Virus record (IMG/VR): IMGVR_UViG_3300048813_000140
Location: 1-50,701 of that record
Reading direction: 5' to 3' (one strand)
Origin: a virus
DNA: 50,701 bases
Shown piece by piece: positions 10,565-50,701 of this stretch (positions are counted from its first letter, which is position 1; each line of letters opens with the position of its first letter). The notes under the pieces were generated by a model. It saw only the letters and a list, made by a program, of their open reading frames with translations, ran no database searches and was not told the origin of the DNA. The translations under genes and the position numbers were made by a program.

Positions 10565-13500
10565 TATACACCTACTTGAACAACGCTTATGTCAGTTTGG
10601 GGATTTATAATGAAGGCCTTTTCTCCAGGAGTCAAAACGATCTGATCATGGGCAGTGTCATATGAAGGGCTGGTTATTGACACGGCAATGATTCCAGGTA
10701 TCGCGCTGACAGCGGCCACTATAGAACTTATAGCTATTGACTTACCAACAGGATTTGCATTTACTAAGGAAGTTACCACATTAACAACCTGAGCAGCCGT
10801 TTGAGTGAACGGAACGCCAGTCGCCAATCTAATTGCTACGCCGACTTGAATTCTCGTAGCGAGAGGTCCACGAATGAATATAGGAGCGCCTGCGGCACCG
10901 ATACCAGGGTATGTGATGTTATCAGTGGGATCACCGTAAATGATCTTATTACATTCTGCAATCAAGCCCGTATTATAACTGTAGCTATCAAGGCCCAATT
11001 CTATGATAGTATTGAACTTTAATTTATTAAGAGCAGTCATCTGCACGAGTGCGGATTGATTGATTTGGTCAGATTGAGCATTTGTATCCAGCGTCAAAAT
11101 AGTTTGAACTGAACTTCCTGGCTGCGGAGTAGCAAATACGATTTTCTTATATCCATAGTAGGGAACACCTTCTTGGACATACACAGAAGATGTAATATTA
11201 TTCAGACTAACATTCGAAACGGGATTCAATACCCCAGTAACTACGATAGTATTTTGATCCAATACCTTAGAGATGGTCCAGGGTCCTATATTTGGAGTCG
11301 TAAAGTTATTGCTGGTTATCACAAATGTATCACCAGGAACCGTGGCTGAATATTCCAAGAATTGGATTTGAGGTCTATTGTCTTGTAGCAAATTCGATAT
11401 CGTAACACCAGATTGATTGGTAGCAGAAGGATTTATAGCTTCTACAAACGTTCTTTGTCCAGCCTGCAATATGGCAATAATAAAGGCAGGAGGCATCGTT
11501 ATGCTACTAGGAGAGGTAGTCTGTATGTATCCAGTCGTCGTTACTGTAACCACATTGGCAGTAACGGAAGTCGTAAAATCTAAACCACCATTAGCAGCGG
11601 CAATTACCGCAGAAGCCTTATTAGCAACAGATGAAGAGCTATCGCTGGAAAGAATTGTAACTTCTAAGCCTGTCAATCCCACAGGAGCAGGATCTGTATT
11701 TGATCCACCAGTTACGTTGAACCACACATAGTACTGATTTACGTTACCTGCACTATTGAGCAAGAAATACTGTCCAGCTCCAGATGGGCTAAATTGAGTT
11801 CCAGGAGGAAATGTAAAATTAACAATCTCTTGAAGCTTAGGTCCTGAGTCCACGACCATAAAACTACCACGATTGCCTGAAGAGAAGTCTGTCCCTAGGG
11901 TCAATATATCACCAGCTACGGTGGTTCCTAACGTAGGTTCAGCTCCAACACCAGACCACTGCAAAAAGAGGCTATTATTTGTAGCATTTACTGAAAATTG
12001 AGTGGTGCCATCAAATCCTAGATTTACAGGATTATAAGGTAATGACACTTCTTCTTCTATTGCGTTAGGATTTTCAAACCATACGCTGTTATTGAGTCTG
12101 CGAATTACTTTAAATCCACCAGGAGGACTTTGGTTGAGAACGTTAAATGGAGATCCTATCATTAAGGAATCGCCTTCGCTAACCATACCAATGGCAGAGA
12201 AATTCCCAGAAGAGAAAGAGATAGAGGATTGTGGTACGCCGATTGGATTTAAAACTTCTATGATTGTGCCGTTTTGTGAAACCCCAGTAACCAGAAATGT
12301 ACCATTATTGGCGGCATTGAATCCAGCAACGTTGATGGTTATCAGATCGCCGATAGACAATGTTGTAAAATTTGCAACACCAGTATTTATGGTATAAGCC
12401 ATGTAATCGCTTGAAGGAACGGTTTCAGAGACCGTAACTGTTCCACCCGCAGAATCGTTAAAGCTCAAACTTGTTTGGAATAGAGGATTCGTGCCGACAT
12501 TAGTCCAGCTCAAACACACCAAGCTTCCTTGGTTTTCTATCCTAAAAGTGTCGCCCTGAACCCTAACGAAATTTCTGGGTTTACCAAAATATCTTTGTGT
12601 TAAAGTTCTGCCAGATAACTGTATTGTAGATGAACCAGTGGTTGGCTCATTTGCTATGATGCTTACGCTTGTATTTGAAGAAAACAAAGTTTCTTTGAGT
12701 TGAACGTTTGTGGCGGCTAATCTAAACCACTGATCGCTCAATGCTCCGACCGCAGCTATGCTATTAACATTGACACTCATCAAGGAATTATCGACCCTGG
12801 TAGCAGAACCTAGTATGGGGATACCATATCCGTTTCCTAATCCACCAACGATCTGTATAGCGCCAACACTTCCGACCATCTGTGTTGCTAATTCTAGTCT
12901 TGTTCCTCTGTCTGCTACGTTGATCGTACCTGCGGTGATAAATCCGCTAACAGCAAGAACTGAAGAGAATAAACTAACCTGATCCATTGTAGTGGGCACG
13001 AGCTGTACGGTTTCGCCATTATTAAATGCATACCAATCATTGGCGGGTCCATCATATGGATATGCTAAGGGCAATTTAAAAGTAAACTGTGGAGAGCCAC
13101 CCAAATTGCTTACCGAAATCCAATTGATGCCGTCCTGTAGCTGTACCGATTTATAGGCGAATGCGCTGTCATCATAAGTGCTGAGAGCAATAATGCCAGC
13201 ACCAGATGTTCCACCGTCGTTGACTAGTGTTGCAGATATGTACTGCGGCAGGTTGGTTGCGACATAGGTCTGAATCTGTGCTGCCGTAGTAGGAGATGCA
13301 GCATAAAAAGATATGGCGCCTGCAACCGCCGTAGATTTACTTGATTCAACTACGCCATTCGGATTGGTTACCGTGAACGTTTCTGCTACTGGGTCTACGG
13401 CAGATACCATAAATACGCCAGTATTACCAGCGCTAAAACCAGTTTGACCTGTGATATTTACATATTGTCCAACCTGAACGTTGGTCAGATTTGGGTTGGT

Positions 13501-45500: not shown

Positions 45501-45908
45501 TTAATAATCCTCGCTTGCAGGATAACCATAGAGTTCTTCCTGTATTTTTCGTTTTCCTCGAAATTTATACAATCCCTCAGTGACTATGTGTGGATCTACG
45601 CTTTCTACCTTTTCTGGGTCAGGCTTTGGTAGTTTGGCTGCTGCGGGTCTAAGTCTTGCCAACTGTTCATTGGCCATCTGAATCTGCCATTCAGCGCTTG
45701 CTATCTTTTCTGGGTCAGGCTTTGGTAGTTTGGCTGCTGCGGGTCTAAGTCTTGCCAACTGTTCATTGGCCATCTGAATCTGCCATTCAGCGCTTGCTAT
45801 CTTTTGAGCTATATCAAGAGCTGCGAATTGCTCAAGACTCAAAGAGAACACATAATCTCTCTCAGAAGCTATCCTAGCGTAAGCGTTGTCGATATCTTCA
45901 TTTCTTCC
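45501..45908 (-). CDS. Unknown protein with identical internal 32-residue duplication
   Basis: Encodes 135 residues from the ATG at 45908, chosen because AGGAG lies seven bases upstream; a longer frame runs to 45938. It contains two identical 32-residue repeats (KIASAEWQIQMANEQLARL then RPAAAKLPKPDPE) back to back, coded by two identical 96-bp units. The repeat is a helix with an alanine- and proline-rich hinge. The C-terminus (KFRGKRKIQEELYGYP) is basic. A helical spacer or scaffold function is possible. It overlaps the upstream gene by 11 bases. No family recognised. Confidence 0.65.
   Translation of the reverse strand, partial: GRNEDIDNAYARIASERDYVFSLSLEQFAALDIAQKIASAEWQIQMANEQLARLRPAAAKLPKPDPEKIASAEWQIQMANEQLARLRPAAAKLPKPDPEKVESVDPHIVTEGLYKFRGKRKIQEELYGYPASEDY
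45610..45801. repeat. Perfect 96-bp tandem duplication
   Basis: Two adjacent copies (45610-45705 and 45706-45801) are identical as read by eye, which preserves frame and adds 32 residues to the protein at 45501-45908. Identity of third codon positions implies a recent event. Confidence 0.85.
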
Positions 45909-46844: not shown

Positions 46845-46873
46845 AGTATAACACGGTCTTGAAAGTTTTACAA
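46845..46873 (-). promoter_or_regulatory. Sigma70-type promoter for the minihelix RNAs
   Basis: Minus strand TTGTAA (46873-46868), 17 bases, TATACT (46850-46845). Its -35 overlaps the stop codon of the 314-residue gene. Transcripts would start about 12 bases before the closing stem of minihelix 1. Confidence 0.6.
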
Positions 46874-47812
46874 GGAGTTTTCGTAGACGAATAGATTCTT
46901 GCCGTCTTCGCCATAATAATTGATTCCCAAAAGTAGATTGAACTGGATGACCTTGTTGGGATCATTTGGGTCAACCGAGACTTGACGCACCCAGTTAAGA
47001 TCTACCGACTTAACCCGTTTCAAAAGCGGGTTATAGAACTTAACTTCAAACGGGTACGACAGATCCATGACGGCGCAAGGGACGATTTCTTTGACTACGG
47101 TCCCTTTGGGGAGAATTGACAGATAATCTGCGATTTGTTCTTGTAACATGGCGTCAGTGTGTTTGGTAGTATCGCCACCAAGAATGGCCGTATTCCAGTA
47201 TGAAACGTAGATTCCAGCCAGAAACTCGCCGTCAGATAGGATAGGTCTAATATCGCCAAAATGGTTTCCAATACCGCCTTCAAGGGTATAGACATGTTTG
47301 TGGGTTTCAGCAATATAGTCGACTTGGATATGGGGAACGAGGACGAAGCAGAACACGGCTACAGTAGGTGCTTGTTTTGGCATCCTGGCCAGTTTAAGGA
47401 TTGACATTGGGGCTAGACAGGAATGGATGAGTCCTTCCTGGGAAAGCCTATTGATGGTGTTTGCGATAATTTCGACGCCTTTTTCAACTTCTTCAGGACG
47501 GGTCTGAATTGAAAAATATACACTTCTGAAGAATTGACCATCGTCGTATTTGACGGTAAGCGTCGCGGACTTACGTTTAAGGTCTTCTTTGGCACCGTCA
47601 GATAGGTACTTGTCAGCCATTTCAGAAACGTCCGTAACATGAATGGCTGACCCTACCGTAAGTTTTTCAGCAACTGGCTGAGCTTCCAAATCTTTGGCGA
47701 GTTCTTCCACTTCTTTAATAAGTGATTCGTCAATATTCATGTTTTCTAGGTTTTTGGCGATTTTTTTTAAATTTTCTTCTGCTCGTTCTTCAAGTGTTTT
47801 ATTTTCAGACAT
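46868..47812 (-). CDS. Unknown 314-residue protein
   Basis: Encodes 314 residues; the ATG at 47812 has GGAG nine bases upstream and its own promoter at 47836-47846. Residues 1-60 are acidic coiled coil (LEERAEENLKKIAKNLENM, EVEELAKDLEAQ). The rest is a mixed fold with a cysteine (ISCLAPMS near 128-135), hydrophobic strands (VAVFCFVLVPHI) and aromatic C-terminal text (QFNLLLGINYYGEDGK). No signal peptide. Such long unknown genes at the edge of a metabolic block may be virion or regulatory proteins. I recognise no family. Confidence 0.7.
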   Translation of the reverse strand: MSENKTLEERAEENLKKIAKNLENMNIDESLIKEVEELAKDLEAQPVAEKLTVGSAIHVTDVSEMADKYLSDGAKEDLKRKSATLTVKYDDGQFFRSVYFSIQTRPEEVEKGVEIIANTINRLSQEGLIHSCLAPMSILKLARMPKQAPTVAVFCFVLVPHIQVDYIAETHKHVYTLEGGIGNHFGDIRPILSDGEFLAGIYVSYWNTAILGGDTTKHTDAMLQEQIADYLSILPKGTVVKEIVPCAVMDLSYPFEVKFYNPLLKRVKSVDLNWVRQVSVDPNDPNKVIQFNLLLGINYYGEDGKNLFVYENSL

Positions 47813-47835
47813 TTGGGTTTTCTCCTGTTTCCTTT

Positions 47836-47846
47836 GTTATATCACA
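47836..47846 (-). promoter_or_regulatory. Extended -10 promoter for the 314-residue gene
   Basis: Minus strand reads TGTGATATAAC with TGn extension, 24 bases before the ATG at 47812. This is the same core as at 18537, 27941 and 40066. Next to it (47852-47864) lies GGGGC-TCA-GCCCC, a five-base-pair hairpin in the promoter's upstream flank. Confidence 0.55.
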
Positions 47847-48391
47847 CGTTAGGGGCTCAGCCCCGAATCCATTCCAAATTGATTCGCAGTCACATAGGCG
47901 TCCATCACGGAGCGCATCAGATGTGTGTAAATTGGATCTGACAGGGCTCAGTCACATAGGGCATCACTTTGGGGATTATGGTGTTTATAGCGGCTTTGTA
48001 GTCGAAAGGGGCAAATTTAGGATCGGGAGACGCATCAGTTAGAGACGCCCAAGGGAAGAGTATTGGGGAATTTTTCTGGAAATATTTTTTGCTATTAGAT
48101 TGTAAAATTTACATCGAATCTATAAAATCCATGAGCAAGTACATCAGGGGCTTGACTCAATCTAATACGAAAACCCCGATAAACCCGTATTCCCTAACAA
48201 AATCGCTCCTATAGACTGTACTATGCACTGGCCTTCTCATTTCTCTGGTACGACTCAATAGGTCACTCAATCAAAGACCGTGCCAGACCGTTCCCCCTTG
48301 CAAGTATAATGCCAGTCTGTAGTATGGTCACTCAATTTAGTCGGACGTCCAACTCGACAGTGCACGCGTCGGAGGTCTCTCATTTAATTTA

Positions 48392-48490
48392 GTCACGAAT
48401 ATAGTCAATGAATTCAATCATTTAGTTTGTCCCAAAACGAGACAGCATTTCGCAGTTCTCGTCTGTCACGAATATAGTCAATGAATTCAA
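48392..48490 (+). repeat. 26-bp direct repeat flanking a hairpin
   Basis: A 26-bp word starting GTCACGAATATAGTC is present identically at 48392-48417 and 48465-48490. Between them lies the TGTC/GACA hairpin at 48428-48444. Confidence 0.8.
48428..48444 (+). other. Hairpin with loop inverted relative to the 49.9-kb terminator
   Basis: TGTC-CCAAAACGA-GACA. Arms and 3' flank match the terminator at 49932-49959 (23 of 26 bases in the right arm and flank), but the nine-base loop is its exact reverse complement (TCGTTTTGG there). Stem here is only four base pairs, so termination is unlikely. Confidence 0.65.
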
Positions 48491-48509
48491 ATAGATATAG
48501 ATACACAGA

Positions 48510-48536
48510 TGCCCGACGAGTTTACGTCAGGCATTT
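48510..48536 (+). terminator. Possible rho-independent terminator
   Basis: TGCCCGACG (48510-48518), six-base loop, CGTCAGGCA (48525-48533) with one C-A mismatch, then TTT. The stem is good but the T-run short. It lies before the first small gene. Confidence 0.4.
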
Positions 48537-48634
48537 AAGGCGCGGTCAGTGAGTGAGGCGCGTATATAGTAGTAGTTTCGACTAAATTGAGTGACAGGTC
48601 TCCATGGACACGACGGACCTATTAAGGGGTCTAT

Positions 48635-48772
48635 ATGTCTAAACATGCCGTGAGGGGTCTAAACATGCCATATGTTACCATACATATAATATTAGTACAG
48701 AGACAAGATTCGTGTATGTTTTTGAAACGTTTACACTATAGACAGCCACACAAAAGTTATACAGTGTACTAA
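48635..48772 (+). CDS. 45-residue protein of the right-end block
   Basis: ATG at 48635 follows AAGGGGTCTAT, the same start context as the genes at 48943 and 49662. A second AGGGGTCTAAAC-ATG lies ten codons later in the same frame (48665), so a 35-residue form is possible. The product is MSKHAVRGLNMPYVTIHIIL, then a basic, tyrosine-rich end (RLHYRQPHKSYTVY). No family. Reality depends mainly on the shared start context. Confidence 0.5.
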   Translation: MSKHAVRGLNMPYVTIHIILVQRQDSCMFLKRLHYRQPHKSYTVY

Positions 48773-48942
48773 GATCTGGGTAACACTCATGATTTTTGAA
48801 TATACCTAAATAGTGACCATACGTTCGACAGCATCCCGAATTTAGACTTAATAGTATTGAGGTGTTATCCTATTTAGTTTCGGGCACGAAGTCTGCAATA
48901 TAGATCTGTGTCGGTCCTAAACAACTAAACAAAGGGGTCTAT

Positions 48943-49458
48943 ATGTACGGCATACACGTTGAATCAAGTAGCATGACAGGTCGCCTCATGTCTAATAAGC
49001 GTTATAATGAGTTGAGACTTCAAATGTCAACGGGCGAGTATGGCACGCATACCGCTATTAAAATTAAGACCTCAACTCTAAGTGTTATAATGAAGAGCGA
49101 AACGTCAACTCATTGCTATTTAGAACTAAATGGCGACTCATGTAACGTGACTCTTCGTTTCGACAGAGGTGATACCGCGCGTATATGCGGTTATCCTCAA
49201 GAATGGCTGTTACACGATCAGACAGACCCATATGACCATGATAGCGATACAACGGGCGCCGATCTTTTTGAATGCGATACGATACCTGAACATGTCACTC
49301 AATATGTCTCTAAGGATTTAGAGTGCTCCATACTCCAATTGCTATTAAAATGCGTTACTAAACAGTTTCAAGACCCCTCATGGTCCGACTCATGCGATGA
49401 CGCGACTCGACAAGACGTTATTAATAAAATCGAGAATGCTATTAAGGCGTTGTCATGA
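48943..49458 (+). CDS. Unknown 171-residue protein of the right-end block
   Basis: ATG at 48943 is preceded by AAAGGGGTCTAT, an exact match to the contexts at 48635 and 49662. The sequence begins MYGIHVESSSMTGRLMSNK, has a long strand-rich middle (about 45-85, with NVTLRFDRGDTARICGYP), an acidic segment (DPYDHDSDTTGADLFECD, about 96-113) and a C-terminal helix pair (LECSILQLLLKCVTKQF, VINKIENAIKAL). Seven cysteines are spread through it. Codon and word use (many GACTCA/GTCACTCAAT-type words) differ from the tail and metabolism genes. No family recognised; early or host-takeover function is a guess from position. Confidence 0.7.
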   Translation: MYGIHVESSSMTGRLMSNKRYNELRLQMSTGEYGTHTAIKIKTSTLSVIMKSETSTHCYLELNGDSCNVTLRFDRGDTARICGYPQEWLLHDQTDPYDHDSDTTGADLFECDTIPEHVTQYVSKDLECSILQLLLKCVTKQFQDPSWSDSCDDATRQDVINKIENAIKALS

Positions 49459-49538
49459 GTCAACTGTTAACTGCAATCGTGGCATCATATGGCGTGGGTC
49501 TCGTTATCGGGACTTTAATCTGTAAACTATTAATATAA
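49455..49538 (+). CDS. 27-residue membrane peptide
   Basis: ATGA overlap with the end of the 171-residue gene sets the start. Product MSQLLTAIVASYGVGLVIGT then LICKLLI is one hydrophobic helix ending in a lysine, long enough to cross a membrane. Translational coupling and helical hydrophobicity support it. No family. Confidence 0.5.
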   Translation: MSQLLTAIVASYGVGLVIGTLICKLLI

Positions 49539-49661
49539 CTAAATAAAGTGAGGTATATCATGGTCGAAACCGACGACAGTCGAGTATGGTGAGGCGTATT
49601 CAAACATATATGGTGACTAAATACTTAATTTTATTAATAAACTTTAAAATAAGGGGTCTAT

Positions 49662-49925
49662 ATGTCTACAGAGACTAAATTGCAATATATTGAATACGTT
49701 CGAAACCAACTCAAGACCATCGACAAGACCGATGCCGTTGCGTCGTACGATACGGGTTTCGGTCTTGATATAGTCGATACGCATTTAGGCGACGAAGTGC
49801 ACTGTATGGACGTCCGATGTCACTCAATATTAAAAATCAGACCGCCCAATATTCAAGGTAATGAATGGTATACGGCGTGGAAGCACGCGAAACGCATGGT
49901 GCGCACTTTTTGCAAACAATTATAA
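49662..49925 (+). CDS. Unknown 87-residue protein of the right-end block
   Basis: ATG at 49662 follows AAGGGGTCTAT. The protein begins MSTETKLQYIEYVRNQLKTI (a helix), then DAVASYDTGFGLDIVDTHLGDEVHCMD (about 24-50), then SILKIRPPNIQGNEWYTAWKHAKRMVRTF, a basic helix. It ends just before the strong terminator. Word use is like that of the 171-residue gene (GTCACTCAAT at 49819-49828). The shape is that of small regulator or inhibitor proteins of phage early regions, but no family is recognised. Confidence 0.65.
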   Translation: MSTETKLQYIEYVRNQLKTIDKTDAVASYDTGFGLDIVDTHLGDEVHCMDVRCHSILKIRPPNIQGNEWYTAWKHAKRMVRTFCKQL

Positions 49926-49931
49926 GTACTT

Positions 49932-49959
49932 AGGCTGTCTCGTTTTGGGACAGCCTTTT
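49932..49959 (+). terminator. Rho-independent terminator
   Basis: AGGCTGTC (49932-49939), nine-base loop TCGTTTTGG, GACAGCCT (49949-49956), then TTT. A perfect eight-base-pair stem directly after the 87-residue gene. Confidence 0.8.
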
Positions 49960-50006
49960 GCAGTTATCGTCTGTAGCATATAACTAATTGATTTTATTAA
50001 TATATG

Positions 50007-50239
50007 CTGTGTGACCATGCTGTGTGACCATGCTGTCACGGCACTGTGTGACCATGCTGTGTGACCATGCTGTGTGACCATGCTGTCACGGCACTGTGTG
50101 ACCATGCTGTCACGGCACTGTGTGACCATGCTGTCACGGCACTGTGTGACCATGCTGTCACGGCACTGTGTGACCATGCTGTGTGACCATGCTGTCACGG
50201 CACTGTGTGACCATGCTGTCACGGCACTGTGTGACCATA
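50007..50239. repeat. Mosaic tandem repeat of 13-bp (A) and 11-bp (B) units
   Basis: Unit A is CTGTGTGACCATG and unit B is CTGTCACGGCA. Twelve A and seven B units follow each other without spacers in the order AAB AAAB AB AB AB AAB AB A; the last A ends GTGACCATA. All other units look identical. GTCAC in B and GTGAC in A are inverted copies, so adjacent B and A can pair as hairpins. No unique spacers, so it is not a CRISPR. Confidence 0.9.
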
Positions 50240-50701
50240 TGTTTGAAACTACTACTAATAGTGACATGAGGCACTTTTTGAGACAGTCTAACCTATTGAT
50301 TTCTAAATATGGGATTCTCAATCAGGGATTTTGAAAAAAAGCCCATATTGCAAATGCCATGCCAACGTATCATAATGAGACATTCCAATCCAATAAGTCC
50401 CAGTATTGATCTAGGTTTGGGACTCTCACATATTCCAATGCTAATATACGACCTAGCATATTGCATAGAGTCTTTAGATATTCAGGTATCGTCAAGTATT
50501 AAGATTTTTGAGTTTCATATGTATTTCATTGTATGTATTTCATTGTATGTATTTCATTGTTTTTAGATTGAATTGTTCAATCAATTGCCCGTACGTCTAG
50601 GAATATATTTTGCGTTTACATAGTGTATAACATAATTAAAGTATATCCATTGTGGCGTACAAAACAATACAGAGTAGGGGAGTGGGTCTTTTTTGACTTT
50701 C
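50240..50701. other. Non-coding right end
   Basis: About 460 bases without a supported gene. They hold an AATATGGG/CCCATATT inverted pair (near 50307 and 50340), GTCCC...GGGAC near 50397-50423, and three copies of TATGTATTTCATTG in tandem (50518-50559). AT-rich, and different in character from the metabolism block. Confidence 0.6.

Follow-up and report, generated by a model that had tools for sequence, protein, structure and literature searches.

A 15-bp dyad repeated about 107 times, with sigma54-like promoter sites, in the putative early region of a phage related to Myxococcus phage Mx1

The last 2.9 kb (from 47.85 kb) of a 50,701-bp window of viral DNA, the window being the whole stretch analyzed and the first 50.7 kb of the 175,837-b IMG/VR record IMGVR_UViG_3300048813_000140, is in part supported by its sequence as the control segment at the upstream edge of the early region that the phage encodes rightward. 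Reading was continued beyond the window edge, where a 15-bp dyad, GTMTCAWWWTGAKAC, is present about 107 times between 50.27 and 59.2 kb and mostly inside genes (at least 12 of 15 positions matching; 106–107 copies depending on the start point), forming what we refer to as a dyad carpet. Promoter-like sites of the sigma54 form precede several of the early genes. We tentatively favor, at a little under even confidence, a reading in which the early region is under the control of regulator-bound dyads together with sigma54-form promoters, in a manner resembling the stoperators of mycobacteriophage L5.

The record has a G+C content (GC) of 41%, and protein matches relate the phage distantly to Myxococcus phage Mx1 (OR576727; PMC10720576). 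These matches have 23–54% identity and include the capsid (54%), portal (46%), sheath (45%), terminase, a GroEL-like protein, polymerase, recombinase, and many others, such that the phage has the capsid, portal, sheath, terminase, and replication genes shared by Mx1-like contractile-tailed phages; the early regions of the two phages, in contrast, are mostly unrelated. A total of 68 IMG/VR relatives were collected through alignment of two capsids, those of the focal phage and Mx1. Searches with the three block proteins, the DNA polymerase, or rIIA gave no close relatives, a distant-DNA search of phage records returned nothing, and nothing was found by Rfam and tRNA scans. From 48.6 kb the rightward region contains dozens of small genes plus rIIA, which we interpret as the look of a typical early region.

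The dyad emerged from a k-mer comparison of 47.85–64.6 kb with the rest of the record, which yielded GTCTCA and GTATCA and resolved into the 15-bp sequence. With at least 13 of 15 positions matching, there are 59 sites in 50.3–60 kb (9.7 kb), and the remainder of the record, the neighboring early region excluded, has 8. The spacing of the two arms is strict, with 14 pairs of T[AC]TCA and TGA[GT]A in the focal phage at a gap of 3 and none at gaps of 0–2 or 4–16; across three phages the counts at gap 3 are 14, 13, and 15, and such pairs are never seen at gaps of 0–2 or 4–8. We set aside matS and other known dyads, the spacing of which differs from that of GTMTCAWWWTGAKAC. Sites fall in all three reading frames as well as outside genes, at densities of 13.1 per kb within genes and 9.0 per kb outside, and 86 are seen in genes versus 20.3 ± 3.1 after synonymous shuffling. 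Codons for this null were redrawn from the carpet genes themselves, and overlapping genes were counted separately in both the observed and the null sets; the null is conservative because the codon pool is already biased. The all-frame and extragenic sites, and their survival of the shuffling test, rule out a repeated peptide motif or duplicated genes, and an RNA hairpin is rejected on the independent variation of the two arms, unlike a stem, in that the degenerate pair M/K of the dyad does not covary (p = 0.31). The signal is therefore at the level of DNA rather than RNA and, on the evidence of sequence comparison, the dyads owe their retention to selection acting on the DNA and not on the encoded protein.

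The carpet is also present in other phages. In the nearest relative (G001; 94% capsid identity) there are 90 dyad sites in 8.7 kb of the early region, and in the DNA that can be aligned with the focal phage the identity is 85% in the sites and 69% outside them, with 10 of 12 focal sites still being sites in G001 compared to 1.5 expected. Phage L315 (a 117,954-b record) shares several early proteins with the focal phage and contains 72 dyad sites, 71 of them within 4.5 kb; here the identity to the focal phage is 82% in sites versus 69% outside, and 17 of the 21 focal sites in the alignment persist, where 2.9 would be expected. An AlphaFold model of a conserved protein encoded in the L315 carpet was too poor to use. 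A looser dyad carpet runs along the contig of an unrelated phage (L088, L317, and L276; IMGVR_UViG_3300044300_003702 and two overlapping contigs), which has terminase, portal, and DNA methyltransferase genes and a large excess of GTCCCA. A generic phage excess of the dyad is rejected, in that the focal phage, G001, and L088 alone were strongly distinct in a set of 207 viral loci. Further cases from a second pattern scan were L315 and L223, which are related to each other, L317 and L276 from the same phage as L088, and more weakly L267 and L264. Because L088 and L315 were both found by exact-match scans, one site in each is pre-selected, the others not. All other searched records of the capsid group, Mx1 included, have at most one dyad site within one mismatch. 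In L267 (IMGVR_UViG_3300030382_004766) we noted a near-tandem row of dyad-like sequences at 10899–11115, with a spacing of 16–17 bases for the greater part of the row, which may be an operator or centromere array.

Sigma54 promoters have a −24/−12 form, GG-N10-GC, with a TGGCAC...TTGC core. In a de novo comparison of 4-mer pairs upstream of 18 rightward early genes, made with no prior motif, GGCA-N7-TGCA was the top over-represented pair (9 seen versus 0.026 expected), and pairs of this type occur 19 times at gap 7 in 47–67 kb versus 0–1 times at each of nine other gaps. Of the GG-N10-GC sites in the record, 11 agree with the consensus at 11 or more of its 12 positions, compared to 0.4 expected in Markov sequence, and eight of these best sites are on the plus strand within 48–84 kb. 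They share with sigma54 (RpoN) promoters the GG and GC 10 bases apart and the TGGCAC/TTGC consensus, are specific to that gap, and are oriented ahead of early genes. Conserved elements occur upstream of the sigma54-like sites, and before five of them a dyad copy starts 48–49 bases upstream; assuming the usual start position, its center would lie near −67, unusually close compared to sigma54 enhancers. Bacterial sigma54 systems differ further in that no activator domain was matched among the proteins of this phage. Two relatives, G005 and G006, have oriented sigma54-like sites with a start signal after them, and we noted that their early regions (L209 and L205) carry a conserved AATAAGGAAATTAAGTANTTAGCG-like element before these sites, unlike the focal upstream element. 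No report of sigma54-driven early genes in lytic phages was found in the literature searched.

We propose that host RNA polymerase with sigma54 would start early transcription and that a dimeric regulator would bind the dyads, controlling initiation at the promoters; along the genes, many bound dimers would slow or block elongation, such that early transcription would be turned off or restrained. The pattern suggests a dense protein-landing zone controlling early infection. No DNA-binding protein was recognized among the early proteins scanned. The recurrence of this dyad in intergenic positions of some Bdellovibrionota chromosomes makes it probable that the regulator is encoded by the host, or else is a phage protein of matching specificity. 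The operators and stoperators of the Cluster A mycobacteriophage L5 are present in many copies at promoters and downstream of them, and are proposed to stop both initiation and elongation (PMC9283540). The focal dyad is similarly multi-copy at promoter and downstream positions and may by analogy be a repressor site. However, the L5 sites are asymmetric 13-mers oriented with transcription and located in short intergenic spaces genome-wide, whereas the focal dyads are palindromic with arms at gap 3, are concentrated in 50.3–59.2 kb mostly inside genes, are far denser (about 107 sites in 9 kb), and also have counterparts in bacterial intergenic DNA. Highly iterated bacterial motifs such as HIP1 and DNA uptake sequences combine a short motif with a high density inside genes; the focal dyad differs from these in its confinement to one phage region (at roughly 12 per kb), its fixed spacing, and its placement at promoters.

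Several observations weigh against control by regulator-bound dyads and sigma54-form promoters. The majority of dyad sites deviate at 1–3 positions, and the copies 48–49 bases before sigma54-like sites are among the weaker ones, matching at 11–13 of 15 positions and usually degenerate. In G001, the nearest relative, the carpet persists with few sigma54-like sites in it, and Mx1, the closest named relative, has neither an excess of sigma54-like sites nor a dyad carpet (zero sites with one mismatch or fewer). Neither the DNA-binding domain of sigma54 nor the domain of its activators is matched by any phage protein, and the use of sigma54 must therefore assume host factors. A search of 291 Bdellovibrionota and 195 Myxococcota genomes, which had no positive control, did not recover the capsid gene.

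The dyad is also found in bacterial chromosomes. In a scan for GTCTCAAAATGAGAC with one genome per species, at least about 20 of the 118 listed stretches are from Bdellovibrionota-type genomes, as counted by their titles. Nine Bdellovibrionales-type genomes contain 2–15 perfect copies of GTCTCAWWWTGAGAC each (0–1 for the reversed control), and two other Bdellovibrionota-type genomes and seven comparison genomes have one each, this being the match by which they were found. Dyad places in bacteria are mostly intergenic (32 of 40) and lie before unrelated genes. We noted 9–15 perfect GTCTCAWWWTGAGAC copies, mostly intergenic, in each of the four genomes behind L398, L399, L379, and L425 (G026, G021, G025, and G029), representing an uncharacterized bacterial operator or repeat family. 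Among 57 further, evenly drawn Bdellovibrionota genomes there are 14 dyad sites versus one for the control, in eight genomes, and 38 further Myxococcota genomes have a single site, which is chance level apart from one genome. A phylum-wide host motif is ruled out, as only part of the Bdellovibrionota carries the dyad (8 of the 57 further genomes). This part probably uses the same dyad as an operator, and its members are candidate, not proven, hosts of the phage. We consider it unlikely that phages of Bdellovibrionota-type bacteria have written about 100 sites silently into their genes, making the whole early region a place where a global regulator of the host lands, and drive those genes from host sigma54 promoters.

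The same intergenic dyads raise the somewhat unlikely possibility that the carpet is a sponge, titrating the host transcription factor of those dyads and derepressing or silencing its regulon, with any effect on the phage's own genes being secondary. With approximately 107 sites, a phage genome has many more than the 2–15 perfect copies of a host genome, and the looser carpet of the unrelated phage would also fit; however, the sites are limited to the early region in both the focal phage and G001, and the constant spacing between a dyad and each of five promoter sites downstream would be needless for a pure sponge.

To the left of the carpet is a GTGAC-rich array with a 24-bp period, composed of a 13-mer, CTGTGTGACCATG (A), and an 11-mer, CTGTCACGGCA (B), in the order AABAAABABABABAABAB with a final partial A. 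It holds seven GTGAC-N6-GTCAC dyads, of which there are none in record positions 67000–175837; GTGAC itself is scarce elsewhere, with 32 of the 162 copies in the record lying in 3.2 kb. The cumulative GC-skew minimum is at 46–47 kb, and this minimum and the array may mark an origin. The initial annotation offered an origin or partition locus as one explanation of the block, and the skew minimum and iteron-like array are in agreement with it, but no initiator or ParB-like gene was recognized among the proteins scanned. A replication reading, in which the block and array are the phage origin and the carpet is a replication control system, appears improbable to us, in that the skew also tracks gene direction, no initiator was recognized nearby, and the array is missing in those parts of G001 and L315 that were examined. 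Alternatively, a coating protein could use the carpet as a structural platform for protection, compaction, segregation, or control of injection (parS-like or nucleoid-like), with effects on transcription being incidental. The very close packing of the sites (in L315, 71 within 4.5 kb), the palindromic dyad with no dependence on gene direction, and the adjoining array and skew minimum are consistent with this. It is nevertheless quite unlikely: spreading centromeres need few sites, no par gene was recognized among the proteins scanned, and the array is not present in the examined parts of G001 and L315.

The left border of the block is sharp, as the initial annotation had proposed from the change of gene style at about 47.85 kb. 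Orientation switches there, with the last leftward gene starting at 47812 and rightward genes following from 48.6 kb; long non-coding stretches lie on either side of the small genes (the second, from 49926, ends at 51034, just past the window), and there are repeats that include the 24-bp-period array, a pair of perfect direct repeats of 26 nt, and a recurring 34-nt element. In tetranucleotide composition the block deviates by 0.458, compared to 0.233 ± 0.059 over all windows, which places it above all 117 windows except for one that overlaps it, and it stays high without the array. Composition is thus not continuous at this border, although there is no corresponding border on the right: several of the windows ranking next in deviation adjoin the block on its right, up to about 58 kb, and the neighboring early genes have orthologs in G001 and L315.

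The start signal AAGGGGTCTATATG described for the starts at 48635, 48943, and 49662 occurs exactly three times in the record and nowhere else in it (zero for a reversed-pattern control), and leftward core genes lack it. A fourth near copy had been suggested at 48653–48667 (GAGGGGTCTAAACATG), but this is a weaker match with more than three mismatches, and the 45-aa open reading frame (ORF) that begins at 48635 is doubtful. The 171-aa and 87-aa proteins look genuine and, as suggested, match no family; an AlphaFold model of the former is unusable (pLDDT, the predicted local distance difference test, of 42). The signal is the local form of AAGGGG-N-ATG, which is used by rightward genes to 63.4 kb and not by the leftward core genes; AAGGGG precedes ATG by a few bases at 48624, 48932, 49651, 52114, 52363, 53537, 54810, 60567, and 63349, all rightward. 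Among the identities first considered for the block, an early region is supported by the divergent control region, the many small rightward genes, and the shared strong start signal with its upstream elements. Terminal repeat, transferred DNA, or a satellite were also considered, and that the block is such a foreign or terminal module now appears highly improbable: its composition is the most deviant in the record, but it has no second copy there, the deviation extends over 10 kb of early genes, and related phages share the carpet with orthologous genes and have the same over-represented motif in the matching region. The features of the block are listed in Table 1.

Table 1. Features at and to the right of the 47.8 kb border, in window coordinates.
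Feature	Position	Strand	Remarks
Last leftward gene, 314 aa, no family	46868..47812	-	Left edge of divergent control region; 43% homologue in nearest relative
Divergent non-coding region, GTGAC/GTCAC-rich	47813..48634		
GTCACTCAAT copies in divergent region	48262, 48327; reversed 48586		
Two perfect 26-nt repeats in divergent region	48392, 48465		
Inverted repeat in divergent region	48327-48354 / 48568-48595		
Sigma54-like site TGGCATTATACTTGCA, possible promoter towards 47812	48299..48314	-	10/12 consensus positions; putative
Start signal AAGGGGTCTATATG, copy 1, before doubtful 45-aa ORF	48624..48637	+	
Degenerate copy of the 15-bp dyad, ATCCCGAATTTAGAC	48833..48847		49 bases before sigma54-like site
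34-nt upstream element	48850..48883	+	94% identical copy at 50946 of the record, before gene 51035
Sigma54-like -24/-12 site GGGCACGAAGTCTGCA, likely promoter of 171-aa gene	48882..48897	+	
Start signal AAGGGGTCTATATG, copy 2	48932..48945	+	
171-aa protein	48943..49458	+	No relatives found
27-aa hydrophobic ORF, overlapping stop of 171-aa gene (ATGA)	49455..49538	+	Predicted by sequence reading
Start signal AAGGGGTCTATATG, copy 3	49651..49664	+	
87-aa protein	49662..49925	+	No relatives found
Terminator-like hairpin GGCTGTC-TCGTTTTGG-GACAGCC-TTTT, dyad copy inside	49933..49959	+	By sequence reading
GTGAC array	50004..50240		
Left end of dyad carpet GTMTCAWWWTGAKAC	50270..50701, on to about 59,227 in record		Perfect copy 50367-50381
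Sigma54-like site TGGCATGGCATTTGCA, facing the array	50349..50364	-	11/12 consensus positions

Some other parts of the genome are worth recording. Two ORFs (147633–150491 and 151463–152599 of the record; L009) match the single 1289-aa polymerase of Mx1 and are approximately 0.97 kb apart, as would be expected if the polymerase gene were split or interrupted by an inserted element. The gene at 141995–143617 (L008) has a full-length match to phrog_1745, annotated in PHROG as a DNA transfer protein, and that at 131425–132456 (L008) encodes a homologue of an Mx1 protein annotated as a putative RNA polymerase sigma factor, with no Pfam sigma domain. At 167001–168000 (L010) GC rises to 0.55 and the GC skew is strongly negative. 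Within the window, a leftward gene contains a 96-bp tandem duplication (45599–45805; 2.2 copies, 98%).

The gene-internal dyads, at about one per 85 bases, above synonymous expectation and across diverged phages, are strong evidence of a regulatory layer written over coding sequence. The dyad provides a ready bait for finding its regulator and may help to trace the host of these large phages, a group about which little is known; the system could also show whether sigma54 is open to lytic phages for transcribing their early genes. If the reading considered unlikely above is true, a landing zone for a host regulator together with host sigma54 promoters would tie the start of infection to the regulatory state of the host.

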